Virus record (IMG/VR): IMGVR_UViG_3300030098_004740
Coordinates: 1-64,000 of that record
Reading direction: 5' to 3' (one strand)
DNA: 64,000 nt
From: a virus
Shown here: in pieces, positions 15,799 to 38,800 of the stretch
Position numbering within the stretch: position 1 is the first letter of the stretch
Layout: each line of letters opens with the position of its first letter
Notes under the pieces: generated by a model
What the model saw: only the letters and a program-made list of their open reading frames with translations
Told to the model about the DNA's origin: nothing
Database searches by the model: none
Position numbers and translations under genes: made by a program

Positions 15799-18700
15799 AT
15801 GGCTGGCAATTTCAACATAACAGCACAGATACACCTGCAAGCGCCTAACGCAAAACAGTTTTCTAGAAATTTGCAAAAACAATTGCAAAATCCTAACATC
15901 AAGGTAAATTTGCAAGGCGCGCCTAAAACCGTAAAGGATCTTAACAATGTAGTTAAAGCTACTAAAGACGTTGAGAAAGCTAGCAGAAGTGCTGGTAAGG
16001 GTGCTGACTATATGGGTCGTCAGCTTGGAAGTGCTTTCAAGCAAATCATGAAATACGACATCGCTCGTCGTGTTTTTTCTCTTTTTGCAAACTCTATTGA
16101 ACAAGGCGTGAGAGATGCTATTGCTTTTGAACGAGCTATGGTAAAAGTTGCTCAAGTCAGCGGAGCAAGCGCGAGAGAAATGAAGGCGTTGACAAAAGAA
16201 ATCACTAACGTTTCTAAACAATTTGGAGTCAGTTCTCAAACTTTAGCTAGAACAAGTTTGATTCTTAAACAAACAGGTCTCTCTATGAGAGACACTAAGG
16301 TAGCGATGGAGGCTTTAGCTAAAACAGAATTAGCTCCTACGTTTGATAACATTGCTGATACAGCTGAAATGGCTGTTGCCGCGATGAGGCAGTTTGGATT
16401 GGAAGCTAGCAAACTTGAAGGTCTATTAGGTAAGATCAATACTGTCGCCGGAAACTTTGCTGTTGAGTCTTCTGATATTGGTGTCGCTATTAGGCGTACT
16501 GGTGGCGCGTTTAAAGCTGCCGGTGGTGAAATAGAAGAACTCATAGCCCTATTTACGTCTGTTCGTGCTACTACTCGTGAAACTGCTGAGACTATTGCTA
16601 CTGGTTTTAGAACTATTTTTACCAGACTGCAACGGCCAACAACTATTAAATTCTTGCGGCAATTTGGAATTGAACTTACAGACCTTGACGGTAAGTTTGT
16701 CGGCCCTTACAAAGCAGTCGAAAGACTTCATGGAGCATTAAAAAACCTAGACCCTCAAGACCTAAGATATTCAATGATCGTTGAACAACTTGGTGGGTTC
16801 CGTCAAGTCTCTAAGGTCATCCCGTTAATACAACAATTTGGCACTGCTCAAGCTGCGTTAAATGCACAACAAGCTGAAAGCGGAAGCTTAGCATCAGATG
16901 CTGCTAAAGCACAAGCGACTCTCGCTGTTCAAATGCAGAAACTAACTGAACAGGTAAAAGAACTGTTTCGTGAAATAGTTGGATCTGACTCTTTCCAAAT
17001 GATGGCAAAAGGAGCATTTGCTCTTGCTGAAGGCATTATCAAAGTAGGGAAGGCTCTTGCTCCAGTCATACCACTAATAACAGCCATGGCCGGTATGAAG
17101 ATGGCTGGCTGGGCTATGGGAAGTATGAAGATGTTTGGAGGCCGTGGACTAAACCAATCTCTTGGTACTATGGGAGGCACAGGCGGTCCGGGCTTTTACA
17201 ATCGTGGTGGTCGTGTACGTAGATTTAGTAGAGGTGGCTGGGTTCCGGGATCTGGTAATGGTGATACTGTACCTGCATTACTAGAGCCGGGAGAATTCGT
17301 ATTACGTAAATCTGCTGCTCAGGCTTTTGGCCCACAACTGGCTTCTGTTAATAGATATGGCAATGGCACTCGTGGTTCTTCAGGTGTAGACCCTGATGGT
17401 ATGTCAGCTTCTTCGTCTCCAGTATTATCAAGAGCTTTATTCCAAGGCGTACATGATGGTGATAGTTACCGAATACATGGAATACCTTCACAACAGAAAT
17501 GGAATACAACCACTAGACTTGACGGAGGGGTAGATGCTTATGAAATAAGAAATATGTCTTCTTCTGGTCCAGTGTGGGGTCCGAGAGAGAAGCAGTTGGG
17601 AGATTTAGCCAAGGCGATGGCAGAGAGTCACGCCTCAAAAATTAAAAAAGGTCAAGACATCATAGGAATGTTTGGGAATGTAGACCCAAAGAAGAAAGAA
17701 AAATATGGAAGACCTTTGATGACAGACCCTACCTTGGCCGATTCTTTGCTACAGGCTGGTCTTGGAGAAACTGACAAAGCTACAGGCACTCTAGAACAAA
17801 GAGTCATGAAATATGCTCAAGGAAGAACTAGAGCAGGAATAAATTCTGGTCCCGCTGGAAGTCTTTATCAACAATGGGTAGCTGAAGAAAGACAAAAACT
17901 TGAACAAGAAAACAAAATGGCTTCTGGAGGTTTGGTTCCTTCCCTTCTAACCCCCGGAGAATTCGTAGTTAACAAGAAGTCAGCTCAAAGATTTGGTTAT
18001 GGCAAGCTATCTAAGATGAATAGATATGCTGGCGGTGGAGCTGTTCGTAGATACGCTAATGGTACTGGTGGCGCTGGCGTTCTTCCTATGGGTATGGGCG
18101 GCGGAGGAATGTTCGGAGGAATGATGATGCAGCTGGGCATGATGGAAGGCATGTTCGGCAAAGTAGGTAAAGCTGGACTTGGAGCTTTTAATGGATTAAC
18201 CAACGTTGCTGCTGGAGCAACAATGGCCTATGCAAAATTTTCTATGGTAACCCAAAGTGTTGGCGCTGCTGCACAAATGTTTGGCCTTCAAAGCGAAGCT
18301 GTTACAGCCTTCATTGATAGACTCTCTATGGTTGGTGGAGTTATAAGTTCGCTTTCTTCTGTTGCTCAAAATCCAGCAACTCAAGCTGCATTTAGCCATG
18401 CTATTGACTGGGCTGTGAATGGTTTGATGCTCTTTGGCGGCAAGCTAAAAAACTTAGGAAAAGCCATGGGAGGAAAAATCGGCACCGCAGTTAGCAGTGC
18501 TGGTGGCAGGGTAAGTGGTTCGGCAGCACATGTTGCTAAGGGCGGACGCCATGCTAAAGAAATGTATCAAGGAATATTCCAAAGAGGCCAAACAAAAGCA
18601 TTTCGGGACAAGGTACTCAAAAGGCAAGAACATTACAAAGGCGTCGCAGCAAGTAAAACCAAAGCTGCTGGCCATGCAACAAGAAACATGGGAGAGTTGG

Positions 18701-21700
18701 GTCAAAAACTTTCTGCATCACAGGCTCAAGGCGCAAAAATAGATGCTGATATTCTAAAAAATAAACAAAGTATATTAAAAAGCACAGATGACATAGCTAA
18801 GGCAGAAAAAAGTTATACCGCTTTAGCTAATGCAAAAGCAAGAAATGAAGCCACAAGAATAGCTGCAAATAGGCGAGTTTCTGAGATAGGAGAAGGTTTC
18901 CCTAAGCTATTGAAAAAAGAAAAACATGCTTATGAAACTGGATTAAAAATACAAGAAAAACTTAATGCAGCGAGAACGCGCCTCAGTGAAAGTGGAGCTA
19001 AGTTTGCCGAGGGTCAAGCTGACTTTAAAGCTGGTAAATACATAAAAGATGGTGGAACTGCCGGTGAGTCCTCATTGAAAAGATCTGGCAAAGGCAAAAT
19101 GGAGTATTGGGGACGAAAAGCGGCTCTTGATCAAGCAGAAATTAAAAAGCTTGAGGAAGCGATGGCGGCTAATGCTAAGAGGCAAGCATCGTATACTAAG
19201 AGAATTGGCGATGCTGAAGCCACAGTAAACAAGTTGACAAATACACAACGCAGCATGATAAATAAAAATGCTGCACTAGATGGTGCGCTTGATTCTCAAA
19301 TGGCTGCTAGAAATGCGGCATCTAATACTTTAAATGCTCAACAAAAAGCTGCGAAAGAGCTTGCTGAAGAGTCAAGTAGAGCTGCTGCACAAAGCGCCAA
19401 GTATGCTGACAAAATGGATGGAGCAGCAAAAGCTGCTGCCAGTCTAGGCGACGACGCTGCAAAAGCTGGAACAAAAGCAGCCAAGCTTGGTAAAATAGCT
19501 ACAAAAAGTGGACAAATATTAGCAAAAGGTAGTAGAGCTATAGCAACCATGGGGATTTCCCTAGTTGTTGAAGAGACTATTGCTGCGGTTGGAAGATCTA
19601 TGACGGACGTTGCTATGACGCAGATCAAAGATGCTGGCGGTAGGATGTCAGAAGAAGATGCAGCAGTCGCAGAAGAAGATGCAGCTAGAGGTGGCTTGGT
19701 AAGCGGAGCAGCTACTGGTGCTGGTATTGGTTTTGCCATAGGTGCGCTTACAGGACCACTAGCTCCTATACTAGCTCCAGTATTTGGCGCAGTTGGAGCT
19801 GTAGTTGGTGGATTATGGGGTTGGTTTGCCGCTGCTGAAGAAGCTAGAGAAGCTATCGAACGTGCTAACTTTGATAGAGCATCAGCAGATATGACAGACG
19901 CCATGAAAAAATTTGGTGAAGGAACAGCAACTGCGTCCTTTGCAGTAGAGCAAATAGCAGAAATGCAGAGAGTTGAACAAGGAATCAAAGACTATGGTGT
20001 TAGTTTAGATGAAGTTTATGGTAGCCGAATTGAACAAAGAAAAAATGCTTCCACTATACTCAGCGCACAAGCTCAAAGCGCAATGTCTGAACAAGACTTT
20101 AAAAATGATCCTGCTATTAAAAGGCTTCAAGAATTAGGTCTAGTCACCCAAAAACAAGTCGATGAAGGCTTAAAAGTTGTTGAAGCAAACATGAAAGCCA
20201 GAGCAGCATTAGAAGCTGAATTAGAAGCTAGAAAAGCTTCAAATAGAGAGCTTAGAAAAGTAGCTGGTATTGTAGGCGCAATGGAAGAAGCATCTAATAG
20301 GCTTTCCACATTTGGCGCTTCAATAGAAAACATTGCAACTCCGGGAAGTGGAGGAATAGGAAAAACTGCTGATCTGTTCAAAAATGCAGGATCCAGTAAA
20401 CAAGGTACTGCAAACTTTAACAGTGCTATAGATATGTTTTCAAACATTGCTGGTGGAAATACGCTAGAAGGCTTTGGTAAAAAAGCAAAAGACGCACAAT
20501 TTGTAAATGCAAATATAGAAGATATATTGACTAGATCTGGTATGTCTGGTGGATTAGACCCAGAAAATATGCAGTCAATTATAATGGATGATTTGAAAAG
20601 AACTGCTAAAGAAGAAGGTGCGGCTCTAGGACCTTACATGGAAAAAAGAATGAAAAATATGATAGACAGCATAAGTGAAGATGACTTAGCTGATCTAGAA
20701 AATAAAGCACCAGAAATAGCAGCAAAATTTAAAGAAGATCAAGATAGATTTTTAGCAGTATTTCAAAAAGGAGCAGAACTCCTAGATCAATATACATCAG
20801 AATTGGAAGCTGCTTATAATGCTCAATTAAAACTTGAGCAAGAATACGTTAAGAGACAGCAGTCTTTGATGAACGCTAGATTTTCTTCTGACGAAAAGTT
20901 TCGTCAAAATCTAAGCGCTAGTGCTTTTTCAGGCACAAGCAATGCTGACATTCAAGCAAACTTCTTAGCTAACCAACAAATGCTTGTTAGCGGATCTGGC
21001 GGGATTGGCGGAATGAGCGCTGCTAGGCAAGCCTCTCTTAACGCAGCTGGTGGTGTTGGGAATGTTAATGCGGTAGGTGCGACGTTCAAACAAATTAGTG
21101 AAGATCTCAGAGCAAACCAACAGCAATTGATAAGTCAAGGTTTAGACCCAGCAGCCTTGGAACAGACAGGAGCAGCTGGCGGCTTAGCTGACGAACAACA
21201 AAAACTTATAGAAAAGAACAAAGAGCTTAGGGGAGAGTACGAGGCAGCGAAACAGGTTCTTGAAAACTACGCAAACTCTCAAGAAAGACTGACTGCTCTT
21301 AATAGAGAATTAGAACAAGCCCAACAAAAACGCAAGTCTCTTAAAGATCTTGCTGTGCAAGCTAGGTATGGAACTGCCGAAGAAAAAGATCAAGCTGCTC
21401 GTTTGATTAACGCTATCACTATTGCCTCTCAGCAAGGCATTGATGCTGTAGCTCCAGAACTTCAAAGGCAGGTTGTTGGATACCTTCCACAACTTATGGG
21501 CGCTCAAGGTGAGTCCATAGTTAACCAAGGCATAAACGATGCCTTTGGTGGTGGTCAAGGGATAGCTGGAATTACAGAAGTGAGCGCAGAAGAAAGGCGA
21601 CTCGCTACGGAAATAAAAGCTATAGAAGACGCAGGTATAACCGCTGGAGAGCATCTCGCAGAAGAAGTTGGTGACAGAATTGGAGAAATGGCCGACAAAA

Positions 21701-23367
21701 TTGCTGAGCTTAATAAAAACTTTGTCATAGATTTAAGAACTCTGTTCTTAGAGGAAGAATCAAAACAAGCAAAAGCAGATCAAAGAACCGCAGAAGCAAA
21801 AATAGCAGGAGCTGACAAAACAAGAGAGAAATTAAAAGAGTTTGGAATAGAAGGTACTGTTGATGCACAGGGAAATCTTTCTTATAGCGAAGAAGATCAA
21901 GTCGCTCTCAACAATTTAAGAATGTTGGGTGATCTAGCTATGGAAATGGAAAAACAAGAAAAAGCCACCTCTGCTTTGGGAGGCGTTGATCTTAAAGCAG
22001 AACAGGCAAAACTAGAAGGTTCAGGCTGGGTTATGGATCATCTTGCTTCAGGGACAAGTTCTAATATCTACAAAGCTCTAGGCATTACAAAAGACGAGTT
22101 TCTAGCTGGCATGGGCGGAAATGTTGGTGGTGACAACTGGAATGTAGAAAACTACGACGATGCCGATATGGACGCCATGAAAGTCGTGATTGATAAAATG
22201 GGTGTTAAGTTCGCTGAAATGGGCGGCGATATTAACATGTTTGAATCAGAAGCGATGCGTTTGATTAAACATGCGGCAGAGAATGATCTAGAAGGCCAAG
22301 ACGTACTTCAACCTTTATTCCAAATGTTAGCTGACAGGCAGTCATCAGCTAAGATACAGGGCGATGCCAGAATGAAAGAGTTAGAAGGAAAAGTTTCTCC
22401 AGAAGTTCTTGAAAAGATGAAAAGCATGACTGCCGAAGAAAGAACAGAGTACGCAAGAAAAGCAGGAGTAGCGGCTGAGGTTGGAGATTTGGACACGTTT
22501 GCTAGTGAAAGAAATCAATCCTATAAAGACTTAGCAGATGCTAAAGAATCTTTGAAGACAGTCAAAGATAAGCAAACAAAACTAACGGATGAAGCAACTA
22601 AGAGAGGTAGTATCTTTACTCATGATATTTATCTAGAAAGAATACTTCTGAATATTCTTACGGTTCTTGAAGGCGAAGGAAGAAGTGTAGATTTGCTTCC
22701 TACCAACCTAAATCCTTTAGCGGCTGCTGGTGGTGGTGGTGGTGGTAAAGGAGCTGTTCCGGGCTTCATGAAGAAGTTTGGAGGCAGTAGCTTAACAGAC
22801 TTTGCTAACATGGGCGACGAAGAGAAGCAAAAAATGCTCTCCATGTTAAGTAAAGATAGCTCAATATCAAGCGCAATGAAAGCAGAAATCACAGGAGCAG
22901 CTGGTGGACTACCTTCAATGTTTGCTGCTGACAAAATGCTTTCAAGCCCATTGACTGATGGAAGTCTTGAGGGAATAGACATGGCTAGCACAATGAAAAA
23001 AGCTATAGACAGTTTAAGCGAAGGAACGGCGGCAGCAGCTGTGACCAAAGTAGCACAAGATGCTCTTGCTGAAATGGGCGTTAATGAAACCGCAGAGCTA
23101 TTCTCGAAACATATAGAAGAGTTTTCATCAGCTATGGGTAACCCATTAAGCATTGAAGTGGGCGGAAGTATAGAAGTTAATGTTAATATGAATGGGGCAG
23201 ACTTCTTGAAGAATGCAGAAGGTGCATTAGCAGAAATTGCAGGAAGTGAAGCCTCTAAAGCAATAAATAACTTTATTCAACAAATGAATAAGAGTAGTAA
23301 TGTAAAACCAAATCCTCAAGGCTGGCATCAGTCAGGCCAACCTAAACCTTTGACAGGAAACGGATAA
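15799..23367 (+). CDS. Tape measure protein with embedded SNase-like nuclease domain
   Basis: The 2522-residue protein sets tail length and is ejected with DNA. The N-terminal part (about 80-400) is a PhageMin_Tail/TP901-like domain, with FERAMVKVAQVSGAS, LTKEITNVSKQFGVS and the RRTGGAFKAAG signature. Two modules of the form GGxVPxxLxPGEFVxxKxxAxxxG follow, with PGEFV at 497-501 and 719-723. Between them (about 545-665) is a staphylococcal-nuclease-like domain: D553-G-D555, R573, D579-A-Y-E582, WGP, and Y636-G-R638, then SLLQAGL. A hydrophobic Gly/Ala/Pro segment (about 1299-1340) could cross a membrane. Long coiled-coil stretches fill 960-1240 and 1700-2250. A GGGGG linker precedes the C-terminal part. 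At the usual 1.5 angstrom per residue the tail would be about 380 nm, assuming the whole protein measures length. Confidence 0.93.
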   Translation: MAGNFNITAQIHLQAPNAKQFSRNLQKQLQNPNIKVNLQGAPKTVKDLNNVVKATKDVEKASRSAGKGADYMGRQLGSAFKQIMKYDIARRVFSLFANSIEQGVRDAIAFERAMVKVAQVSGASAREMKALTKEITNVSKQFGVSSQTLARTSLILKQTGLSMRDTKVAMEALAKTELAPTFDNIADTAEMAVAAMRQFGLEASKLEGLLGKINTVAGNFAVESSDIGVAIRRTGGAFKAAGGEIEELIALFTSVRATTRETAETIATGFRTIFTRLQRPTTIKFLRQFGIELTDLDGKFVGPYKAVERLHGALKNLDPQDLRYSMIVEQLGGFRQVSKVIPLIQQFGTAQAALNAQQAESGSLASDAAKAQATLAVQMQKLTEQVKELFREIVGSDSFQMMAKGAFALAEGIIKVGKALAPVIPLITAMAGMKMAGWAMGSMKMFGGRGLNQSLGTMGGTGGPGFYNRGGRVRRFSRGGWVPGSGNGDTVPALLEPGEFVLRKSAAQAFGPQLASVNRYGNGTRGSSGVDPDGMSASSSPVLSRALFQGVHDGDSYRIHGIPSQQKWNTTTRLDGGVDAYEIRNMSSSGPVWGPREKQLGDLAKAMAESHASKIKKGQDIIGMFGNVDPKKKEKYGRPLMTDPTLADSLLQAGLGETDKATGTLEQRVMKYAQGRTRAGINSGPAGSLYQQWVAEERQKLEQENKMASGGLVPSLLTPGEFVVNKKSAQRFGYGKLSKMNRYAGGGAVRRYANGTGGAGVLPMGMGGGGMFGGMMMQLGMMEGMFGKVGKAGLGAFNGLTNVAAGATMAYAKFSMVTQSVGAAAQMFGLQSEAVTAFIDRLSMVGGVISSLSSVAQNPATQAAFSHAIDWAVNGLMLFGGKLKNLGKAMGGKIGTAVSSAGGRVSGSAAHVAKGGRHAKEMYQGIFQRGQTKAFRDKVLKRQEHYKGVAASKTKAAGHATRNMGELGQKLSASQAQGAKIDADILKNKQSILKSTDDIAKAEKSYTALANAKARNEATRIAANRRVSEIGEGFPKLLKKEKHAYETGLKIQEKLNAARTRLSESGAKFAEGQADFKAGKYIKDGGTAGESSLKRSGKGKMEYWGRKAALDQAEIKKLEEAMAANAKRQASYTKRIGDAEATVNKLTNTQRSMINKNAALDGALDSQMAARNAASNTLNAQQKAAKELAEESSRAAAQSAKYADKMDGAAKAAASLGDDAAKAGTKAAKLGKIATKSGQILAKGSRAIATMGISLVVEETIAAVGRSMTDVAMTQIKDAGGRMSEEDAAVAEEDAARGGLVSGAATGAGIGFAIGALTGPLAPILAPVFGAVGAVVGGLWGWFAAAEEAREAIERANFDRASADMTDAMKKFGEGTATASFAVEQIAEMQRVEQGIKDYGVSLDEVYGSRIEQRKNASTILSAQAQSAMSEQDFKNDPAIKRLQELGLVTQKQVDEGLKVVEANMKARAALEAELEARKASNRELRKVAGIVGAMEEASNRLSTFGASIENIATPGSGGIGKTADLFKNAGSSKQGTANFNSAIDMFSNIAGGNTLEGFGKKAKDAQFVNANIEDILTRSGMSGGLDPENMQSIIMDDLKRTAKEEGAALGPYMEKRMKNMIDSISEDDLADLENKAPEIAAKFKEDQDRFLAVFQKGAELLDQYTSELEAAYNAQLKLEQEYVKRQQSLMNARFSSDEKFRQNLSASAFSGTSNADIQANFLANQQMLVSGSGGIGGMSAARQASLNAAGGVGNVNAVGATFKQISEDLRANQQQLISQGLDPAALEQTGAAGGLADEQQKLIEKNKELRGEYEAAKQVLENYANSQERLTALNRELEQAQQKRKSLKDLAVQARYGTAEEKDQAARLINAITIASQQGIDAVAPELQRQVVGYLPQLMGAQGESIVNQGINDAFGGGQGIAGITEVSAEERRLATEIKAIEDAGITAGEHLAEEVGDRIGEMADKIAELNKNFVIDLRTLFLEEESKQAKADQRTAEAKIAGADKTREKLKEFGIEGTVDAQGNLSYSEEDQVALNNLRMLGDLAMEMEKQEKATSALGGVDLKAEQAKLEGSGWVMDHLASGTSSNIYKALGITKDEFLAGMGGNVGGDNWNVENYDDADMDAMKVVIDKMGVKFAEMGGDINMFESEAMRLIKHAAENDLEGQDVLQPLFQMLADRQSSAKIQGDARMKELEGKVSPEVLEKMKSMTAEERTEYARKAGVAAEVGDLDTFASERNQSYKDLADAKESLKTVKDKQTKLTDEATKRGSIFTHDIYLERILLNILTVLEGEGRSVDLLPTNLNPLAAAGGGGGGKGAVPGFMKKFGGSSLTDFANMGDEEKQKMLSMLSKDSSISSAMKAEITGAAGGLPSMFAADKMLSSPLTDGSLEGIDMASTMKKAIDSLSEGTAAAAVTKVAQDALAEMGVNETAELFSKHIEEFSSAMGNPLSIEVGGSIEVNVNMNGADFLKNAEGALAEIAGSEASKAINNFIQQMNKSSNVKPNPQGWHQSGQPKPLTGNG

Positions 23368-26259: not shown

Positions 26260-28538
26260 TGCCTGTTTCATTTACTAACGCAACTGACGCTGATCCTCAG
26301 TTTCTTACACCAGCCCCTTTTATTAATATAAACAAAGATTTTGATAAACAGGGTGATGGAGAAATATTAGGAGCGAGATATAGTATAACCCTAACTGGAA
26401 AAATGATAGCTGATAGAGGCTCTCCTATTGGTATATCTGCCACAACTGCTAATGAGGGTAAGTTTTTAACTACTGCTGCTGACGCTTTGCAACAATTATC
26501 TAGTGGAGATCCTATACCCGACACTCGCTGGTACGAATCATTACAGATAAAACAAAAAGCTTTAAGTAATTTAATTAGCAAGCTACATGAAGGTGCTTAT
26601 CTTGAGGTTACAAGCCCCGGAGATGTAGGTGGAGGTTTTAAAGCCTTTGTCAAATTTGAAAGCTTAGACTTACCCGGACATGCTCCCGGTCAACCCTACT
26701 TGTCAGATTATACTATCAATTTAACTGCTGATTATCTCATAGGCCCAGATGGTAACATAGCTGAAGATGATTTTGAGAATCAAGGATTATGGCTTGTTTC
26801 TTCTGCTAGTGAAAATTGGGACATATCAGAAATAGACAAAAAAGTTTACGATTGGCAAAATGCAAGAAGTAGTGGAGCTGAAGCGCTTTACAAACCTTTG
26901 AGTAATAGAACTCTTTATCAGTTAACTAGAACTGTTAATGCCACTGGTAAGTCTAAGTTTATAAGAAATAATACAAAAGCTGATGGTCTTACTACAAACG
27001 ATCTTGGAGGAACTAATGATCCATCAAGCGACACTAGAAAGTTTAACCAAAAATATGCACCAAATGGAAAAGCTTGGCAACAAGCTAGAGGTTTTGTTTA
27101 TGACGTAATCAAGTATGGTGACGACTTCATTACTGGAAAAGACGGAACTGCTTATAACGCTACAGAAGGTGATGACCCTGCTTGTTATGACAGAGTGGGA
27201 AATCGTCTCTATAATGCTGGAGGGGAAGGTCGCGTTCCTGAAACATCTGCCCATACCTCTGGAACATGCGCTGAAGCTGGAGGTATTTGGAGAACAAAAC
27301 AAAAACCCGTAAAGCCCACTGGCAATTCGTCAAGTGCTGTAGATGCTGATGATCCACATCTGTTTGGAATGAATCTTCCAAACCCCATTACTCATAGTGC
27401 TGATCATCAGTATGTTGGTTTTGATTATAAAAGAACACAATCTGTTGATGTCAGAGGTGGTACTTTTTCTGTTACTGAAACTTGGATTTTAGCACCTGCT
27501 GATTCTCAAGCTACTGAGTCTATATCGTTCGACTTTGCAGAAGATGAGCAAGGTGTTGTTTCTTGTACAGTAAATGGAACTATCGAAGGTCTTTATAGAA
27601 CTCAGGGTAGAGACAGTTCAGTAACAGACCCTCCTCCATTAGGAATGAATTACAGCGTTGGTACAATTAGCGGAACGTATAATGGTCCAGAAGGTTCTGA
27701 CAATAGCAAACTAATAGCGGCTGAAGTTAGATATAATTCTATACAAGCTTTAATGTATCAAACTGTATACAACGAAATGTCTAGAATGATAGACCTTTCA
27801 GGTTTAAGTGTAAATCCACAACCAGTTTCAAAGAGTGTTGCCAAACAGCCAGATACTGGCATTATTACTTACAGTATGACTTTTAATACAAGGACTATAA
27901 ATTTTATACCCTTTGTAAAGAATGAAGATATTAGTCTTAATGATACGTATCCGGGTTATGTTGCTGCACAACATCAAGTATTAGGAAGACGTACTGGTCC
28001 AGTACTACAGTCTATAGGAACTCAAACAGAGTGGAGAAGAGACTTGACTATAAGTTGTACTGTTGATACTCATAGGACTCATTTGTGCGTAGATAGTCAA
28101 GGTGAAGTTCACCCAATAACAGATCAAGCAGCATGTGGTAATACTCCTGATCCATATTCAGGATATTTGCAATGGATACCAAATCCAAATTCAATTGTAA
28201 ACTTTGCTGGAAGCAACAGATATATGTCGCAAACTAGACCTTCTGCTGGTATAGACACTTATGGTACTAATTTCCCCGCTGGATTAAATGGTTCTCAAAG
28301 AGCCGCTATAGTAACACTAATCAACTCCTTTAATCCGGGAAACATGGGACTCTTTGGAGTCAAAAAATATTTTACAGAAGCACCAACAGAAAGTTGGAAT
28401 CCAAAGACTGGACAATGGTCTTATAGCGTAAGTTGGGTTTATGAAATGAAAGACCCATACGCTTTCCCAACGACAGATTACATGAATGGTGCATTCAATG
28501 ACAACCTTGCTGGCCCTTATCCCGGAATGATGATCTAA
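26259..28538 (+). CDS. Tail tip structural protein, 759 residues
   Basis: A beta-rich protein with the N-terminal sequence MPVSFTNATDADPQFLTPAP, then ARYSITLTGKMIADRGSP, then an internal DxRGGTFSVTETWIL domain and a C-terminal region ending in TGQWSYSVSWVYEMKDP. Three repeated segments resembling 'SV-ETW' and 'S-SWVY' suggest duplicated tail-knob domains. A Cys...C-x-x-x-GGxW element (about 310-335) is shared with the later giant protein. It sits between the adhesin and the hub-like protein and is joined to both by TAATG overlaps. The position after the tape measure gene fits a distal tail or hub-associated component; no family name is certain. Confidence 0.6.
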   Translation: MPVSFTNATDADPQFLTPAPFININKDFDKQGDGEILGARYSITLTGKMIADRGSPIGISATTANEGKFLTTAADALQQLSSGDPIPDTRWYESLQIKQKALSNLISKLHEGAYLEVTSPGDVGGGFKAFVKFESLDLPGHAPGQPYLSDYTINLTADYLIGPDGNIAEDDFENQGLWLVSSASENWDISEIDKKVYDWQNARSSGAEALYKPLSNRTLYQLTRTVNATGKSKFIRNNTKADGLTTNDLGGTNDPSSDTRKFNQKYAPNGKAWQQARGFVYDVIKYGDDFITGKDGTAYNATEGDDPACYDRVGNRLYNAGGEGRVPETSAHTSGTCAEAGGIWRTKQKPVKPTGNSSSAVDADDPHLFGMNLPNPITHSADHQYVGFDYKRTQSVDVRGGTFSVTETWILAPADSQATESISFDFAEDEQGVVSCTVNGTIEGLYRTQGRDSSVTDPPPLGMNYSVGTISGTYNGPEGSDNSKLIAAEVRYNSIQALMYQTVYNEMSRMIDLSGLSVNPQPVSKSVAKQPDTGIITYSMTFNTRTINFIPFVKNEDISLNDTYPGYVAAQHQVLGRRTGPVLQSIGTQTEWRRDLTISCTVDTHRTHLCVDSQGEVHPITDQAACGNTPDPYSGYLQWIPNPNSIVNFAGSNRYMSQTRPSAGIDTYGTNFPAGLNGSQRAAIVTLINSFNPGNMGLFGVKKYFTEAPTESWNPKTGQWSYSVSWVYEMKDPYAFPTTDYMNGAFNDNLAGPYPGMMI

Positions 28539-31500
28539 TGCCTTTTACTGGACTAATGTCAGATGAAGTCTTTCAACAATCCTTTATGGGTTTGTCGATT
28601 ATGGACTTTACAGTTAATGCTGGACTAAACAGTTCACAAAGTACCTTGTCACTCAACTTAGTTGCAGATGATGGGTATTTCGATGCGTATCATACTTTAG
28701 ACACACTACCAATGACTTATCCCACAGTTAGTTGGGGAGGATCGTCAGGCCCTTTTGGTACTGGATTTGGCGGTGGATTCTTTATGGGAACAACCACTGT
28801 AAATGTTGGTATTAGAGACGCTGTAACGGAAGGCTACCACCCTTGGGATCCTAATGCTTTTCCCGCAACATTAATACAAAAATATGGCGGAGTGACTGGA
28901 GTTAAACAAAATTATGCTATGAATGGAGATGTAGCATGGCTTCCTCCTCCGGGATCTCCTGTATATTTTAAATATTATGGAACTGGAAATTTAAATAATG
29001 CATGTGTTAAGGATAGAAATTGCACACCCGTATTTCACTTTAATGGAATATTAGGAAACTATGAAAAAAGTTTTAGCACTGGTGGGTTGACTTATTCTGT
29101 AACATTATCAGACCCTAGAAAGATTTTAGAAAATACTCTTGTTATATTAGATGGAGAAACTGGAAGAGTAGCCGCCGCAGATGAGCATTACCTAAAAGGC
29201 ACAGCAAACGTAACCAATAAAAGAAAATACGAACATGGTTGGAATGGCTACTATAACATTATAAATGTCTTTGGTTATTACGAATCGCATGGCTTTAATA
29301 AATCCCGAAAAAATGACCAAGGAATAGCTTGGTTTGAGGCCAAAAATGGGAAGCAATTTACAAACCACTATGGTATTAATCATCATTTTGGAGTTTTGCC
29401 TGCTATAGATTTTATAGCTAGTGGAACTAATGATGAATATATTAAGAAACTTGAACCCTATGGAGGTCCCGCATATTACGGTGTAGATGATAGAAACCTT
29501 GCAACATATGCTCCTTTTTCAGAGCAGTTAAACGGAGATGGTGTCTACAGATATGCAATAGATCTTTCAGCCCTTTATGATTTGAGCAAGTACTATAATC
29601 CTAATCCTCCAGCAAAAGGTGTTATAGATGACAACTTTAGAATAAATGGAGAAAATATATCTCTACTCCAGTTGATAGAAAAGGTTTGCGAAGCTGCTGG
29701 CGCTGATTTTATGGTAGAAATGTACGCTCCAAGGTTAGGAGAACCATTCTACGCAACGCATAAAGACTATGCTGGGATAATAAGAATAATTCCTATCCCT
29801 AGAAATATTGAAGTAGAACTAGGCGTATTAGAAAAAGCTATTGATCTTTCGCAACAGACTCCATCCGTAGGGCCTTTCGTAGATTCAGAACAGCACTCAA
29901 TCTTAATAGACTCTAGTGTTGGATATGAATTCACAGATCCTGTACAAGGCAAAATCCTATTTGGAGCGCCAAGAACAAGAGTAGTTGGAGTTACCCCTCT
30001 CGGTGATAGAAAAACTAGAGATGAATTATTTTATAATGCTACAACAAAAAAGTATATAGACGGAAATCCAACTGAAGGTACGGATGATATCCTTCGAGAG
30101 TATATGCCTTCTATTGAACTAGATGGTGTCACTTTACATACGCAAGCTTTGCCTGCGGATTCATTTCAAGATAGATCTGAATATGGTTGGAATCCTGAAA
30201 CAGATCTTTTAAGAGAAGGTGGCAAAGATGTCTTGCCAGACTTTGAACAAAACCTTCCTATGGTTTCAAATGATGATTTCTTACCCTATCATTTTGCTGA
30301 AGATGTATCTGGTAGAAACTATGATGAAGCTGATCCGTACCAATTTGGAAGAGCTAACTCAAAATTTTATGAAACCGGCTCACAGTGTTTCATAACTCCT
30401 CCTGCTACAGAGGGGTCACCTTTTGTAATAAGCAATTACTGTACTGAAGAGTACGATGCAACTCAGGCTGCTGGCGGTAGAGCTGCTGAACCTCATGGAA
30501 ATCCAAAACAAATATGCACAAATGAAAGCACATGCACAGCCGCTGATTATTGTGATGGTGAATGGAAGACAATAGAGGATGCGCAGGGATGTACAGACGC
30601 TGGCGTTATGTATTTCTTTTTTTATGGTGATCCTAGTCTTTCTTCTCAGAATGTTGGTCAATATAAAAAGGTAGATTCAGGACTTGGTTCTGGATATTTA
30701 GACATGTTTCCATGTTGGGGATTCCACAAGACAGAGTATAACTCTGCTAGCTCTTTGTTAAAAGATGATATCAATAAGTCAATCAAAGGACAGCCAATTA
30801 AGGGAATGTTCTGGGATGATGATCCATATAGAGATTTTCATCCCATTGATGGAATATTTGGTGTATTTGATTGGATTAATCCGGGTCTTGGAAAATGTAG
30901 GTCAGTAGAAGACTTCGTAGATCCTGCCACTGGTCAGACAAATCCGAATACTGCAAAAGGCAAAATATTACCTGCTCTTGAAAATATGCCACTTCTTTGT
31001 GAGTGTGATTATATGACAGCCGCTATTGATGATGACTGTTATACATTTAGAAACAGTATAGGCGTAAAAGCTAGAGGTAAGTTTGAACCAGCTTGTGAAC
31101 CACGTAAAAGATGTGAAGCTCAACCTTCAGGAGATGAAGTAACTGATTTACACGCTGGAACAGCAGGGGTGGAAAATAACTTACATAAAATAAAATTCAG
31201 TTGTGAAAATGCTTGCTTCTTAGCAGACGCAAACGGCAATCCTACTGGAAACGCTGTAGTTGCGTACTATACAGAAGATGTAGGAACTAAAACAAAAGGA
31301 CAAGCAGCTAACGTAAATGATAATGAATGGATGACCAACCCTCCGGGAACAAAAGGTTCTAAGATTAAATTGATATCAGATAAAGAAGATTGTGAAATTG
31401 AATCTGTATCTGGAACACAAACTAAAAGAGTTGTAGGAAACATAAAGTCTGATGGATCTCTAACAACGGGAGCCGACCAAAATAAATTTATCGCAGAAGG

Positions 31501-33997
31501 GGGTCTATATAGCAAAGAGTGCATAGGAATAAGTCACAAATATCCTCATAGTACTCATTGTGAAGCAATAGCTGGTTTCACTGATCCGGCTACGGGTACT
31601 AAATATCGTGTAGGAGACTGGCTTCCATCTACTACAGCTGATGGCTGTAGAGACAGATTTGGCATAATGTTTGTCAAATGGGTAAACGCTATGACACAGT
31701 TTCCAACAAACCCAATTGATGATAAATTCTATGGACAAACTATTCCTGTAGACAAGATACCTGCACCGGGATATGTAAATACTAGATTTAGATATACAGG
31801 AGTCTGCAAGACTCATTTTAGAAATCAGCCAGTCACTAACCTTCTTACTCAAAAAAATATAACTGATAAGTTTGATTGTCTTAATGGGACTGGAGGATTA
31901 CATTATTTTGACGAAGACGATGTAGATAGTATTCCTGTAATGGCTAAGTCTGCAACTATTCCTATTGATTTAGGATCTATAGGATATGACCAAGGTCCTC
32001 TTGGATCGAACAATATTCCCGGAGGTGCTACAAATTGGTATTACGCTACTATTACTGAGTTAAGACACGCTGCTGTAAGCAAAGACTCTTGGACTGCTTA
32101 TCTGAGAAACTTGGGACAAAAACTTCCTTGTTCCATGTGGGCTATAAATCCAGTTCCACAAAATGCTTGGTCTGACTTCTGCAAGAAAGCAGATGAAGTA
32201 ATGTTCAAAGGAGGCACTAGCAAAGCCCATTTAGCAATTGCAAATAACCTAAATTATTTTGCATCTGGAGGTGCTTCAGGTTCGCCAACAATAAATAGCG
32301 ATGTCATAAACCATGCTGGTAATCCAAGCGAAGCTAATGCAAAGTCTGCTACTGGACATCCCTGCGGAGACGCAGAAAGAAATGCTCTTAGTTTGGGTGA
32401 AAGAACTCAAATGGAAGTAGACATTGCTTATCAAAAAGTTCAAGAGGCTGCTACTCAATTTTATGGAAGACGGTACTTAGTGCCATTACCCTTCAATCCA
32501 CCAACTTCACACACTTGTAGCAATCTTGTATACAAAAATCGAGCAGACTGCACAGACAATGGGTATGATTGGGGTCCTCATGGAATGCTAAGCGAATGGT
32601 TCCAAAAGATGGGCGTTGGACAATGCTCAGATGGAGTAAGCGCTGACAAGTTTACTTGTGAAGTAACTAATAATTCTTTTTGGATAGAACCTATTAAACA
32701 CATAAACAAATGGGATATAAATACTTCAGGATGGCCGGGAGGTTCTATAGATTACCAATGGGACGAAACAAAGAACACAGGCTACCCACAGAATATAAAT
32801 TTCTGGACTGAAGACGGGAATTTGGAACCATTTGTTGTATTTCCTTCACACGAAAGAAAAAGATTCAGCGCAGATGCTTCAAGATTAGATTTTAGAAATT
32901 ATGACCCAGAAACAATTCATGAATCAAAGTCTAATGTCGGCCCTATTGCTGGTTGGGGAACTAAAGTCTTTGTTAAAGCCAATGTAGATCCAGAAACTCA
33001 CTGGATACCAGAAAGAGCTGCGTGGGAAATACAAAACGAAAAACAGTTTGCAATGTTTAGAGATGGAGATCCAGATGGCGGAACCGATCGACAAAAAAGA
33101 CTAAACCAGCCAGCGAATCATTTAGCGATTGGAACGCTTGATAATTCAAAATTCCTAACAGAAAGAGAAGTCTATGTAAGAGAAGTAGACCAAAACTCTG
33201 CTGATTATTTTAAGGAAACAGCGGCTTATAAACCTTATGCATTAATCACATTACCAAATCAAGTTCTTTATGGAGATATGGACCAAACAACAAAATTCCA
33301 TCCTGATATTGGAGAAGGTAAAGATATGTGCATACCTTTGATAAAAGCTAAAAACTCTAACGCTTTAATGAGCGCTTGGTTGCAAGGCATGGACAGAGGA
33401 GGAATTGTTGGTCAGCAATTAGTGGCTATGGCAGGCAACTTAAGAAATGCTCCAGTTGTGTCTCCCGATATGGGGAGAGGCTCTTTACAAGCTGCTGCTT
33501 ATAAGCCTTGGCACGCAGCTATACCTCAACAAAGTAAGCATTTTAAATGGGGTCCTTGGGCTTTAGGAACGGGTTTTGGAAAAACTGACTATCAAGTAGA
33601 CACAAGCATACAACCATCAGCATTTGGTGGAGAAAAGGCCATGGCTAATTATGCTATGTCTGGCATAAAAACTACACTTCAAAATGTAACCCCTTATATT
33701 GAGACTGGAAGCGTGACATTAGCTGGCTTACCAGCACACGCGTTTGCAACTCAAATAGTTTTGCCAATTAATGGAGTAAATTTGTTAGGTCCATTTATAA
33801 CAGATATATCTGTAGCAATGGGTGCTAGTGGACTTACTACTACATACAACTTTACAACACAAGAAAAATTTGCTGATATCGACTCTATCAACAGACAAAG
33901 GATCAGAAAAAATCAAGAGGATATGTTGAAGATGCTTAAACATACAGAAGAGCAAATTGCAAAAACAAAAAGAGACATATCAAAGTATATTAAATAA
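28538..33997 (+). CDS. Large tail hub-like protein
   Basis: An 1819-residue protein. The first about 400 residues look like a tail hub: VYFKYYG, then FHFNGILGNYEKSFSTGG, LTYSVTLSDPRKILENT, and later ISLLQLIEKVCEAAGADFMVEM. This is the order 'beta domain, E-S-sequence, VSLxDPRxIL, LxxLxxxVxxxxGxxF' known from phage hub proteins of the gp27/gpD type. The middle (about 600-1400) is Cys-rich with motifs such as CSNLVYKNRADC and CxxxGxxW variants, probably surface domains. The C-terminus contains LPINGVNLLGPFITDISVAMG and ends in a Lys/Glu coiled coil (about 1780-1819). TAATG start. Hub role is likely; the Cys-rich part is unexplained. Confidence 0.6.
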   Translation: MPFTGLMSDEVFQQSFMGLSIMDFTVNAGLNSSQSTLSLNLVADDGYFDAYHTLDTLPMTYPTVSWGGSSGPFGTGFGGGFFMGTTTVNVGIRDAVTEGYHPWDPNAFPATLIQKYGGVTGVKQNYAMNGDVAWLPPPGSPVYFKYYGTGNLNNACVKDRNCTPVFHFNGILGNYEKSFSTGGLTYSVTLSDPRKILENTLVILDGETGRVAAADEHYLKGTANVTNKRKYEHGWNGYYNIINVFGYYESHGFNKSRKNDQGIAWFEAKNGKQFTNHYGINHHFGVLPAIDFIASGTNDEYIKKLEPYGGPAYYGVDDRNLATYAPFSEQLNGDGVYRYAIDLSALYDLSKYYNPNPPAKGVIDDNFRINGENISLLQLIEKVCEAAGADFMVEMYAPRLGEPFYATHKDYAGIIRIIPIPRNIEVELGVLEKAIDLSQQTPSVGPFVDSEQHSILIDSSVGYEFTDPVQGKILFGAPRTRVVGVTPLGDRKTRDELFYNATTKKYIDGNPTEGTDDILREYMPSIELDGVTLHTQALPADSFQDRSEYGWNPETDLLREGGKDVLPDFEQNLPMVSNDDFLPYHFAEDVSGRNYDEADPYQFGRANSKFYETGSQCFITPPATEGSPFVISNYCTEEYDATQAAGGRAAEPHGNPKQICTNESTCTAADYCDGEWKTIEDAQGCTDAGVMYFFFYGDPSLSSQNVGQYKKVDSGLGSGYLDMFPCWGFHKTEYNSASSLLKDDINKSIKGQPIKGMFWDDDPYRDFHPIDGIFGVFDWINPGLGKCRSVEDFVDPATGQTNPNTAKGKILPALENMPLLCECDYMTAAIDDDCYTFRNSIGVKARGKFEPACEPRKRCEAQPSGDEVTDLHAGTAGVENNLHKIKFSCENACFLADANGNPTGNAVVAYYTEDVGTKTKGQAANVNDNEWMTNPPGTKGSKIKLISDKEDCEIESVSGTQTKRVVGNIKSDGSLTTGADQNKFIAEGGLYSKECIGISHKYPHSTHCEAIAGFTDPATGTKYRVGDWLPSTTADGCRDRFGIMFVKWVNAMTQFPTNPIDDKFYGQTIPVDKIPAPGYVNTRFRYTGVCKTHFRNQPVTNLLTQKNITDKFDCLNGTGGLHYFDEDDVDSIPVMAKSATIPIDLGSIGYDQGPLGSNNIPGGATNWYYATITELRHAAVSKDSWTAYLRNLGQKLPCSMWAINPVPQNAWSDFCKKADEVMFKGGTSKAHLAIANNLNYFASGGASGSPTINSDVINHAGNPSEANAKSATGHPCGDAERNALSLGERTQMEVDIAYQKVQEAATQFYGRRYLVPLPFNPPTSHTCSNLVYKNRADCTDNGYDWGPHGMLSEWFQKMGVGQCSDGVSADKFTCEVTNNSFWIEPIKHINKWDINTSGWPGGSIDYQWDETKNTGYPQNINFWTEDGNLEPFVVFPSHERKRFSADASRLDFRNYDPETIHESKSNVGPIAGWGTKVFVKANVDPETHWIPERAAWEIQNEKQFAMFRDGDPDGGTDRQKRLNQPANHLAIGTLDNSKFLTEREVYVREVDQNSADYFKETAAYKPYALITLPNQVLYGDMDQTTKFHPDIGEGKDMCIPLIKAKNSNALMSAWLQGMDRGGIVGQQLVAMAGNLRNAPVVSPDMGRGSLQAAAYKPWHAAIPQQSKHFKWGPWALGTGFGKTDYQVDTSIQPSAFGGEKAMANYAMSGIKTTLQNVTPYIETGSVTLAGLPAHAFATQIVLPINGVNLLGPFITDISVAMGASGLTTTYNFTTQEKFADIDSINRQRIRKNQEDMLKMLKHTEEQIAKTKRDISKYIK

Positions 33998-34014: not shown

Positions 34015-35805
34015 ATGGCCACAGATAAACAACCTGTAAACGACCAAAGGTCTGAAACAGATAAAAATGACTATAGTCACTTGATGCTAACTAGTGCTAG
34101 TTATCCAGAGCAAGACATACCTATTAGAGATGCCGCTAATAATGTTTTGTTTTGGGATAATCATCCTGACTATGCGGGAAAGCCTATAAACGCTTTTAAT
34201 GCATCTACTACTACAGCCACTGGACCAGTTGCATCTTTTATGGATCAGTTTCCAAGCGATAAGGCTTGGCATAATGCTGGAGGTATGTCTATTGATGGCT
34301 TGTTTGTTCCTTATGCCACAAACTTTGCCGTAGTTAGCACAGGTGGGGAAAGAAAAAATCTGAACAAAGCTCCAGACACTTCTTCAATGCCTACTTTTGA
34401 AAGGCCATATAGTGTTGAAAAAGGAGGCGAACCATCAGACCAAGTTGATTTTGTAAACTACAATACAAAACTAGGGGCTGCTGCACCATCTCCCGCCACA
34501 ATAGACTCCGCTTCTCTTAATCCATTTGCTTCCGGCCACTATATACAAATGGTTAACAAGGAAAGTAAACAGGTTAGTCCCAACACAGACGTTTCAGGGT
34601 ATTCTAAGCATTCTTCTCCTTTAGGAAAACCCAATGTTAAATCTACTGAAACAGAAAGACCAATAGGTCTTAGAGGTCCGATTGTTATTGCTGGATGGGG
34701 TTATGATGCTATTACTTCGCATCCAGTTCCTAACTTAAGATACGACTCTGATTATAGACATAATGAACCAAAGAGCGCGAATTATGGTAGGCAAAGGTAT
34801 GCTCCTGAGACCATGAAGGCTAGGACTGCTAGCGGTATGCAGCAAGACCATAAGCATTTTACTCCTTTTCATATGAGAAGACCTGACAAATGGAAAGCTG
34901 GCCCTGTTGACTTAAGATGGGATCACAATAGAAAAGTTTGGGTTGGTGGAAAGCACAATGGAATATTTTTATCAAAAGCTACAAAGTGTATACTTCCAAA
35001 ATCTGGTATAGATGGTAATAACTCTTTTAACTTTGGCGTTGGTGGTAATATTAATGCTCCCGGAAGATTATATAGAAACCCATGCCCAACGCATAACTGT
35101 AATTATCATTCATACTTTCCAACAAGTATCTATTATCCCGATATAGAAATATATGACCCAGAAGATCACAACTGGTGTGGTAGATGTAGAACTATAGGGA
35201 CACAAACAGCATGTGGAGACTTCAAGGATGGATGTTCTCCTTTTTATGATGCAATTATTTTAAGAGCTGTAGATGAACAAGTAGGGAAAAATAACGAGCT
35301 TATTGAATGTACTGACAAGTTTAGAAAAGTGCAAGGCGGTACTCCTCAAGCAAGAAGAGCTGGAAACCCTTGTCATGGATGGGGTTCTAGTAAATTTGGA
35401 ACTGGTGAGTTTATTAATGAAAAAATAGGAGATGACGAAGTTTGGACAGAATATGCTAAAGCTTTGTTGTATCAAAAAATATTCGTAGAAAACCCTCTAG
35501 GTCAAGGGTTAATGGTAGGGGATGCATTTTTTAGTTATGATACTGGTAGGAGAATAGTGTATGAATATGAAAGAACAGATACCGCAGCTTGTGGAAAAGG
35601 TGTTGGTACAAAAGTAAAAGTAAAGGAATCTATTCCTGTACATGTAATTTTACAGGGCGAATTTTATGGAATGGAAGTAATTTCACACGCAGGTTGTGAT
35701 AGAGGTGAAATGGGTTCTTGTTCTAGAAAATTCTTTGCTCAAGGCTTTGCAACTGGAGAAGATTGTGGGCCAGATGATGACTATCCACAAACAGCAGGAT
35801 CATAA
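34015..35805 (+). CDS. Tail tip protein with Cys-rich C-terminus
   Basis: The 596-residue protein has a Ser/Asn-rich N-terminus, a middle with GPIVIAGWGYDAITSHPVPNLRYD and then RRPDKWKAGPVDLRWDHNRKVWVG, and a C-terminal half with about 18 cysteines (from about residue 323 on). The WGYD...GPVDLRWD...VW combination recalls proteins in the tail-tip blocks of large marine phages, though that is from memory. It lies 17 bases after the hub-like gene and shares TAATG with the giant gene. Probably a distal tail protein that carries or positions the giant protein. Confidence 0.5.
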   Translation: MATDKQPVNDQRSETDKNDYSHLMLTSASYPEQDIPIRDAANNVLFWDNHPDYAGKPINAFNASTTTATGPVASFMDQFPSDKAWHNAGGMSIDGLFVPYATNFAVVSTGGERKNLNKAPDTSSMPTFERPYSVEKGGEPSDQVDFVNYNTKLGAAAPSPATIDSASLNPFASGHYIQMVNKESKQVSPNTDVSGYSKHSSPLGKPNVKSTETERPIGLRGPIVIAGWGYDAITSHPVPNLRYDSDYRHNEPKSANYGRQRYAPETMKARTASGMQQDHKHFTPFHMRRPDKWKAGPVDLRWDHNRKVWVGGKHNGIFLSKATKCILPKSGIDGNNSFNFGVGGNINAPGRLYRNPCPTHNCNYHSYFPTSIYYPDIEIYDPEDHNWCGRCRTIGTQTACGDFKDGCSPFYDAIILRAVDEQVGKNNELIECTDKFRKVQGGTPQARRAGNPCHGWGSSKFGTGEFINEKIGDDEVWTEYAKALLYQKIFVENPLGQGLMVGDAFFSYDTGRRIVYEYERTDTAACGKGVGTKVKVKESIPVHVILQGEFYGMEVISHAGCDRGEMGSCSRKFFAQGFATGEDCGPDDDYPQTAGS

Positions 35806-38800
35806 TGGCAATAGGTGACTTCTGGGATACTTCTTATAATCCCATTTATGAATACGGGTCAAACCCGTTGAAGAATGACAGAACAGGAAAATACCAATGG
35901 GGTCCTGACTATTCTGATATTGTTCCTCAAACATCAGTAGGATCACTCAAACGCCGACAAAAAGGTCGGTTTTGCAGTGAAGGATGTGGCTGCGTAAACA
36001 CTTATTGCGACAGTATGCTTCTTCCTGAAGGTCAATATGGATGTCATCTCCCTCCTGAATTGTCTATAACAGTTGTTAGAAATCCAAACGGCAGGTACGA
36101 AGCAAAAGGGGAAATTGAAGGAGGCGGTGGTGAAACTATACATCTCAAGTATTCCAAAGGATCTTGGAGAGGAAGAAGATGTTGTACTAGTAACGCTTAT
36201 GGGCAATTAGAATATGCTTGCGACCCATGTAAAGTGACTACTCTTCCAAATGGCAAACCTTCTGAGTGCCATCCCGCTAATAACAAATTCAAAGATTTTG
36301 GTAAAAACAGTCATATATCTCAAAAGTCTGATAACTTTACAATCAGAGATGATTTTGATTATGACGAAGCTCTAAAAGGTGGAAGTAATTGGCCGAGGTT
36401 AGGAGAAAATGCTTGGTTAAAACTTTCTGTCTATAACGTAACAGCGCCTACAACAGGCACAGATATGCTTAGAGACACCACTTTTGACGGATTTGCTTCG
36501 TTGTGTTTTGATGCTAGCGGATTGCCTGTTAAAGGCATAGGAAACGAGGGTGATTGCTTAAAAAACAGTGGATATCATTGGAGTGAAAAAACGCCTGTTT
36601 GGATTAACAATGATATTAATGACGAAGACGATGTAGCAGGTAATGGTGGTCACATACAGCTAATAGGAACAGAAGAAGTTCCTACAAAATTTAGCATAGA
36701 TGTAAAAGCTGACGAAGTTGTAACAAATATAAAGTCCAGAGAAAAGACTATAAAAGTAACAAAAGATGGATATTTAGATAATTATAGTATAAACAATGGG
36801 GCTGATCCCAACGATAGAGTTTCTACAACAAAACTCAATTATTATGATCCAACATCAGAAGACAGAGGCTGTTTAGTTGATGGGTCAATGCCTCTAAAAA
36901 AACGTCCTTACTGTAGAAATGCAATAACAGGAAAAAGAATACAGCAGCAATGCGAAGAAGTAACAGGTGTTAATGCTGGCTTTGGTTCAGGTTTTTCTAT
37001 AACAAAAGAAAAAGAAGACTGTGAGGCCACTTCGTCTAGCATAAATGGTTACTGTAGTATAAGTGATCCTGTAACACAACAACCTTATCCAGATGAAGCC
37101 TCTTGCAATTTTGCATCAGGAACATGGGTATGGGAAGACAACAAATGGTTATACGACGATCAAACAACATGCGAAGACGCTGGTTCTTGTCTTGCTCCAA
37201 AAACCGATAAGTTTCAAAGTCAAGAAGATAGAATTGTAGGAGCTTACTGTCTTGATATAGTTTCTGGAACAAAAGATCCTGTCCCGCAAAACAAAGCTGA
37301 ATGCGAGGCTCAAGGTCATGGCATATGGAAGCTTGGAGATAGTTCCTCATGCACAGCTTCTTACAAAGAAGGCTCTCCTGTATGTAACGATATTGATGGC
37401 AAAGATTCTGGACATGCTGATGAGGATTCTTGTTTAGCAGCTGGAAATACATGGATGAAAAATGAATGGTTCTCAAATCAATGGGTTGATTGGGAATATG
37501 AAAAGCTATCCTGCTGTGGTGAAACTCTTTTAGATCATAATTACCCATCAAGAACTCCTCAAATATCTGGATCAACACTAAGTGCTAGAAAAAATCCATC
37601 TTGCACTACCCCCTACCATGAAGTGATTTTAAGTCCGTATCAAGCCGGTCAAAATATTAATACTGAGTCATATCATAGCTGTATAGCCGCAGTCAATCAG
37701 TGGCAAAGAGATGACAATACAGACACAGAATTTTTCATGAATACAATCTCCTATTGGACTTTAGTGATAAGGCCATGTAATTTTCATGGAGGTTGTCAGG
37801 ATGAAAATGTCAAAAGACCTGATCCACAAGACCTAATAGATAATAAGCTAGACAATTACTATGACACTACATGCGGTGAAGAAATAGTACTCTATTTAAG
37901 TACAGACCAATTAGTAAATTGCTCTAACCTTAATCTAACAATAGAAAACGAAAATCAGATACGTTCGGGTTGGAAAGAAGCCCAACCTATGTGGCACAAA
38001 AGCATTGGAGATACAAAGGGTAATCCTGCAAATTTGCAATTTTTAATGCCGGGTGCTGATTCTAGTATGATTTCTGGATCTAGCTCTTATGAGTTTTCGT
38101 ATCCCGGTGATGCGATGTACAAAAACCAGTATAAGCATTGGTGTAATAATCCTGATGTAAATGTTGATGGTATTGGTGATGGTGGTGTTTGTTCGCAATA
38201 TCATTACTGGAATTCAGGGTTTCCAAAAGTTCAATTAGCAAACCCTAAAGGAATTGATGCTTTTTATGGTTTCAACTTGCAGCCGCAACCTTTTAAAGCA
38301 ACTGAAGAAAAACAAAATAGAGCAAAGCTTCTTTATACTGCGGCAGTAGATCATAATACATGGCAAGCTTGTGCTGGTCATATATTAGGAGATGCTAATG
38401 GTGGCGGTCATTGGTTCTGGAATTATGGCCCAGACTATTTCATGTATTTTGATTTCCTTGCTTATGACGAAATTCATTCTTTTAATCCTGTAGCGATCAA
38501 AAATGATAGCCCAAAATGTACAGCTGTTGCTACAAAAGCCAAAGAGTATGTAGATAGTCATGTAGGATTTTTACGCAGGGGTGATTGTGGATATGGAAAT
38601 GGGCCTCTTTGGGTTGGTTGGATCCCAGATTATGATAGCTGGACAAACAATAAAATATGTCCCGATTGTGGGAGTAAAGGAAAGAACAATTGTGAATCAG
38701 AAGGTGGGTGCTTAAACGCAGATGGCTCGTTTGAAACTGACCAAACTGATTGCTCTGAAAAAGGGCAATGCAACAGTCCTGTTGGAACCAAAACTACACA

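Follow-up and report, generated by a model that had tools for sequence, protein, structure and literature searches.

What is a domain resembling staphylococcal nuclease (SNase) doing in the middle of a phage tape measure protein (TMP)? Few tail proteins are as large or as poorly understood as tape measure proteins. We considered in turn whether the resemblance is genuine, what surrounds the domain and what it might do there. The window, i.e. the whole stretch of 64 kb that was analysed, is the first part of a 92.6-kb virus record.

The tape measure protein and its layout

Judging from family scores above the curated cut-offs, the ORF that holds the domain is a TMP of the TP901-1 type: it matched TIGR01760 (E 5.3e-32, 111.2 bits against a cut-off of 28.8) and PF10145 (E 4.3e-28, 99 bits against 33.2), as well as PHROG tape measure families (down to 9.8e-27). 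Its features, in positions of the window and residues of the protein, are as follows.

15799-23367, + strand: TMP ORF, 2522 aa, uninterrupted
16195-16788, + strand: conserved TMP core (PhageMin_Tail), residues 133-330
17035-17094, + strand: hydrophobic segment, possibly membrane-spanning, residues 413-432 (Kyte-Doolittle scan)
17233-17364, + strand: slot boundary motif 1 (GGWVPGSGNGDTVPALLEPGEFVLRK...), residues ~479-522, conserved in relatives
17416-17793, + strand: SNase-like domain, residues ~540-665
17455-17463, + strand: D553-G-D555, equivalent to SNase D19-G-D21, invariant in the six-way alignment of TMP SNases
17515-17517, + strand: R573, equivalent to SNase R35, invariant in the same alignment
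17533-17544, + strand: D579-A-Y-E582, equivalent to SNase D40, T41 and E43, with D and E invariant in the same alignment
17701-17712, + strand: K635-Y636-G-R638, equivalent to SNase K84-Y85-G-R87, with R kept in five of the six TMP SNases
17926-18024, + strand: slot boundary motif 2 (GGLVPSLLTPGEFVVNKKSAQ...), residues ~710-742
19720-19836, + strand: Gly/Ala-rich hydrophobic hairpin, residues 1308-1346, likely the membrane-spanning part of the TMP

No nuclease family of Pfam matched elsewhere in this protein. Among 50,697 isolate phage records no relative exceeded about 30% identity over the core, save one short fragment match at 35%, and the MAG-binned TMP loci (GTDB contigs) pointed to hosts that contradict one another. 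Two other long ORFs lie on the + strand of the window: one of 1819 aa downstream of the TMP (28538-33997), with no Pfam match, and one of 3760 aa downstream of the tail genes (35805-47087).

Homology of the embedded domain to staphylococcal nuclease

None of the curated SNase models (Pfam, NCBIfam) matched the window domain, PF00565 with its cut-off of 21 bits included, and the domain taken alone gave no direct SNase match in Pfam, NCBIfam or PDB sequences. More sensitive tests were therefore applied. The PHROG families gave weak matches only (phrog_452 among them, at 0.14). Elongin-A, proposed by phmmer against the PDB with the window domain alone (0.016), was judged spurious.

A profile was built from 23 authentic SNases, bacterial and viral, the window sequence always being left out. 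Searched against 3111 ORFs, it ranked the TMP SNases among the best and found the window ORF with an E-value of 0.014; this value became 5e-4 once the TMP homologue L150 had joined the profile, 1.5e-6 when L005 followed it, and 2e-10 after the further inclusion of L003 and L021, the best shuffled decoy being at 0.83. L150 acts as a bridge: it is the TMP member closest to PF00565 (E 0.0098, 16.8 bits, below the 21-bit cut-off), it matches the phrog_452 endonuclease at 7.4e-11 and, in tblastn, it matches cyanophage endonucleases. With a profile of the six TMP SNases, thermonuclease was the sole PDB match below E 1 (0.015). The hhalign comparison of four TMP SNases with SNases was weak (P 0.006), yet in register at DGD and at R-D-E. 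When the signature DGD[ST]-x8-22-R-x4,5-D-x2-E-x25-75-R-x6-16-L was run on 752,654 residues of six-frame ORFs, only authentic SNases and the TMP cargo family were retrieved (against 0.05 matches per shuffled set).

Relatives of the TMP were collected from IMG/VR, by N-terminus and by the GEFV motif described below, and from GTDB contigs. L003, L005 and L021 carry the same SNase domain as the window, and the cassettes of L150 and L100 were found through the signature search and by reading the slots; further viral scans with SNase queries returned L003/L022, L005 and L021 only, or nothing. A fragment apparently outside a TMP was also seen: an 80-aa frame on the minus strand at the contig end of L079 reads YAFIDGDTLAS...FRMKGIDAPEV (profile E from 2e-4 to 4e-4), and a nearby 1006-aa ORF of that contig bears a TDTVPAWLTPGE motif.

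AlphaFold modelled the six TMP SNase sequences with moderate confidence (pLDDT 57.6, pTM 0.52), with secondary structure elements in the order found in SNase (b-b-b-a-...-a). Among the PDB matches listed by Foldseek at E<=0.001, all were staphylococcal nuclease (probability 1.00, TM 0.39-0.49). TNase-like proteins ranked top in a viral fold library, where the baseplate hub protein of Acinetobacter phage ME3 was a weak structural match. The window domain is thus predicted, at the moderate confidence of that model, to form an OB-fold barrel with the helix arrangement of SNase. The whole slot with its flanks gave no usable model (pLDDT 37.7).

Equivalents of all of SNase D19, D21, R35, D40, E43 and R87 are present in the window TMP, the last five being D555, R573, D579, E582 and R638. 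The only invariant columns of the six-way alignment are D14, G15, D16, R34, D40 and E43 in domain numbering, i.e. D553, G554, D555, R573, D579 and E582 of the window protein; the R87 equivalent is kept in all but one of the six. Between the R35 and D40 equivalents the window has one residue more than SNase, whereas the relatives keep the exact SNase spacing.

Residues ~540-665 are therefore confirmed as a divergent SNase homologue by sequence profiles, fold search and relatives. We do not call the domain a PF00565 member because it has no score above the cut-off of that family. The sequence-only reading, which had proposed an SNase-like domain here, is thus upheld by the window-free profile (2e-10), by the fold search and by the relatives with the same domain. 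The comparison it had suggested with PF00565 gave no match, whereas the predicted fold did prove, by Foldseek, to be that of staphylococcal nuclease. Residues D553, D555, R573, D579, E582, Y636 and R638 all stand at the numbers it gave, and other TMPs with the domain, which it had thought worth seeking, were found (L003, L005, L021, L100 and L150). Its count of five matching active-site positions out of six is right, but the sixth, Ala in place of T41, is no real defect since DAPE or DALE is a frequent reading of that region among natural SNases.

The slot between two GEFV motifs and its changing contents

The window domain is flanked on either side by a 'DTVPALLTPGEFV' motif (GEFV), of which the first copy reads GGWVPGSGNGDTVPALLEPGEFVLRK and the second GGLVPSLLTPGEFVVNKK. 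The sequence-only reading had rightly seen that the domain is embedded in the TMP, but had overlooked these motifs and the exchangeable-cassette setting that they delimit. We surveyed the slot in 39 distinct TMP relatives, from uncultured phages, which have a core region in common, some being fragments with open-ended slots. Both motifs lie within the available sequence in 26 of the 39, and in the window, at a separation of 179 to 2466 aa. The pair is no artefact of the way in which relatives were fetched, because those collected by N-terminus alone (e.g. L003, L004, L005, L006, L013, L014 and L017) have it too. Recombination between the two copies received no support at the DNA level in the window, where 48 of 102 bases match. 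The motif also occurs outside this set: GGRVPGSGNKDTVPAMLTPGEFV is found once in SSM2_012 (L190:3984-6284, 766 aa, after gp26) of Synechococcus phage S-SM2, a cultured T4-like cyanophage. The motif is a general tail-protein module.

A clean case of a swap, with breakpoints at defined motifs, is that of L005, which has the SNase, and L017, which has an unrelated domain, on backbones that are 86% identical. Over the first 500 residues identity is 83-88%; it is 76% in motif 1, falls to 20-21% over most of the cassette, and returns to 77% across motif 2. Likewise, L138 and L150 have 79% identical backbones and cargoes without detectable similarity. On the backbone tree the SNase label requires at least four changes, every one of which is imposed by starred branches; this was a quick tree, and both gains and losses may be among the four. 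At the level of sequence, then, close TMP relatives have their slot replaced wholesale by unrelated domains.

The contents vary among the 39 relatives and are mostly enzyme-like cassettes. The SNase occupies six slots, the window included. A PD-(D/E)XK-like fingerprint is present in 16 slots against 0.7 expected from shuffles, though in L138 the fingerprint is probably placed by chance. When the FDFP-type cassettes are aligned as a family, the conserved residues of their core are E220, F242-D243, D266-A-K268 and two glycines. The putative PD-(D/E)XK label comes from the E...D...DAK fingerprint, as the only PDB matches of the A6 profile of these cassettes were to G-alpha. The G-alpha matches, which run through a variable part of the profile, were set aside. 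HAD phosphatase motifs occur in the slots of L006, L007 and L013, of which L006 and L013 are similar to phage polynucleotide kinase. The L050 slot (1218-2849, - strand) contains an ADP-ribosyltransferase (PF03496, 25.4 bits against a cut-off of 23.4) that also resembles the T4-type RNA polymerase ADP-ribosylase (phrog_832), L154 contains a metalloprotease, and P-loop motifs are present in L014, L015, L054, L111 and L147. The window has one cassette; other TMPs combine several kinds of enzyme, such as L050 (PD-like by eye, plus the ADP-ribosyltransferase) and L006 (HAD and PD-like). Families of HNH, GIY-YIG, LAGLIDADG and intein type had no match in the scanned slots.

Two further features were noted. 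The slots of L014, L054, L008, L111 and L147 are very long (to ~2400 aa) and include stretches that resemble P-loop and nucleotidyltransferase sequences ('VYGVAGSGKSTFIQGG', 'VFSGNLGPTTAGHVKA'). L017 and L111 have in common an unclassified cassette, 'THFTHLDSG-x-TS-LPK-FRKVYTNMGLDLPANWNL', for which no family gave a convincing match.

Proposed function and delivery, with precedents

In phages generally, the TMP fills the tail tube, exits with the genome and takes part in the passage of DNA through the inner membrane. The window domain is probably a nuclease of the SNase superfamily, held in an exchangeable cargo slot and delivered into the host along with the TMP. The tail protein probably doubles as an enzyme vehicle, because related phages hold other enzyme domains in the same slot. 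The SNase cassette would ride in the tail tube, compact or unfolded, exit with the TMP, fold in the envelope or the cytoplasm of the host and cut nucleic acid there as infection begins, candidate targets being host or rival DNA or RNA. In other phages the slot holds a PD-(D/E)XK-like domain, a HAD phosphatase, an ADP-ribosyltransferase or a protease, as though a single platform were fitted with changing effectors. The simplest reading is that the enzyme would be active, as soon as infection starts, at the host envelope or within it. Cytoplasm has little of the Ca2+ that SNase usually needs, so that activity there is uncertain; this dependence would favour the periplasm or the membrane as the site of action. 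Attack on host DNA, removal of a barrier and help in leaving the periplasm, the uses put forward by the sequence-only reading, may be among its roles. As to the TMP of lambda, proximity labelling places it, while injection is under way, at the ManYZ site of the inner membrane (PMC13190303).

Other explanations were weighed against delivery of an active nuclease. The SNase fold could have been kept as a DNA binder, a folded spacer or a tail plug, for instance to hold the genome end or time its release. The function of a TMP is mostly a matter of length, widely differing cassette sizes are tolerated (those 179 to 2466 aa from motif to motif), and the window domain has strongly diverged from PF00565; yet its most conserved positions are the catalytic residues, and there would be little reason for a pure spacer to receive catalytic-looking domains time after time, which makes this explanation unlikely. 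We find it rather improbable, too, that the nuclease serves DNA passage or acts on phage DNA, nicking or trimming at the membrane channel in the manner of a DNA-entry nuclease such as the EndA-type domain of the TMP-related effector Tme, and not on the host genome. The slot, lying between the hydrophobic segments at residues 413-432 and 1308-1346, may sit at the membrane, and the authors of the Tme study propose DNA cutting by its EndA-type domain as a way to let fragments through a pore (PMC11126660). Cutting its own incoming genome would, however, be costly to the phage, and the ADP-ribosyltransferase and protease cargo of the relatives does not fit.

Among the mobile elements of phages homing nucleases are common, and the majority of the cassettes look nuclease-like, as would be expected if these were selfish or homing-like insertions in a tolerant site, of no benefit to infection; given that the scanned slots lack matches to the homing and intein families named above, and that ADP-ribosyltransferases, HAD phosphatases and proteases are not homing enzymes, we hold this to be very unlikely. 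Chance resemblance to SNase, for which the lack of a direct sequence match of the domain alone would speak, is already largely refuted by the profile values, the fold search and the active-site pattern common to six homologues, and retains hardly any credibility.

No SNase in a phage TMP and no motif-bounded TMP cassette slot was found in full-text searches of mainly open-access journal articles. The earlier remark that no nuclease was known in this place was thus nearly right as regards SNase, but related cases have been published, the nearest precedents being Tme, the BtI1 hub SNase and the polyvalent proteins. Tme, from the contractile injection systems of Streptomyces davawensis (PMC11126660), has a nuclease domain on a TMP-like protein of a tail-derived injection machine, and its authors suggest domain exchange; its nuclease is EndA-type and C-terminal, in a bacterial system and with a DUF4157 core domain, whereas that of the window is SNase-type and internal, in a phage TMP where Pfam detected no DUF4157. 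Sle1-type effectors similarly have a TMP-like scaffold whose functional domain can be reconfigured, but they belong to bacterial nanomachines and the module, for example a deaminase-like domain, is C-terminal; the word 'nuclease' is absent from that paper (PMC13277306). In BtI1 an SNase domain is fused to a tail virion protein, there at the N-terminus of the baseplate hub (gp147 homologue) instead of in an exchangeable internal slot of a tape measure (PMC2147016). Polyvalent proteins are injected phage proteins with shuffled enzyme domains (ADP-ribosyltransferase, zincin, nucleases); the paper describing them mentions neither tape measure nor SNase, whereas here the carrier is a TMP with a defined, bounded slot (Iyer 2017, PMC5512222). 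Recent TMP mosaicism could not be confirmed in PMC10684548. TMPs with lytic domains, such as YomI of SPbeta, also have an enzyme within a TMP, with a distantly homologous core, but theirs are peptidoglycan hydrolases for entry and not the nuclease and effector-like domains of this clade. With respect to free or secreted thermonucleases (PF00565, phrog_452), the window domain shares the order DGD, R-x4-D-x2-E, KYGR and an OB-fold-like topology; it differs in being inside a TMP, in scoring below all curated thresholds and in having a longer b2-b3 hairpin.

For the clade of uncultured phages as a whole, we see an even chance that the TMP is a general delivery vehicle, with one GEFV-bounded slot that takes in one unrelated enzyme after another (SNase, PD-(D/E)XK, HAD phosphatase, ADP-ribosyltransferase, metalloprotease and P-loop enzymes). 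If so, it would be a phage counterpart of polymorphic-toxin cassettes, with effectors delivered before any phage gene is expressed. Should the cassettes indeed be delivered, the motif-bounded slot would provide a rule by which others could be recognised from sequence, and the virion itself would bring changeable counter-host enzymes into the cell ahead of gene expression.
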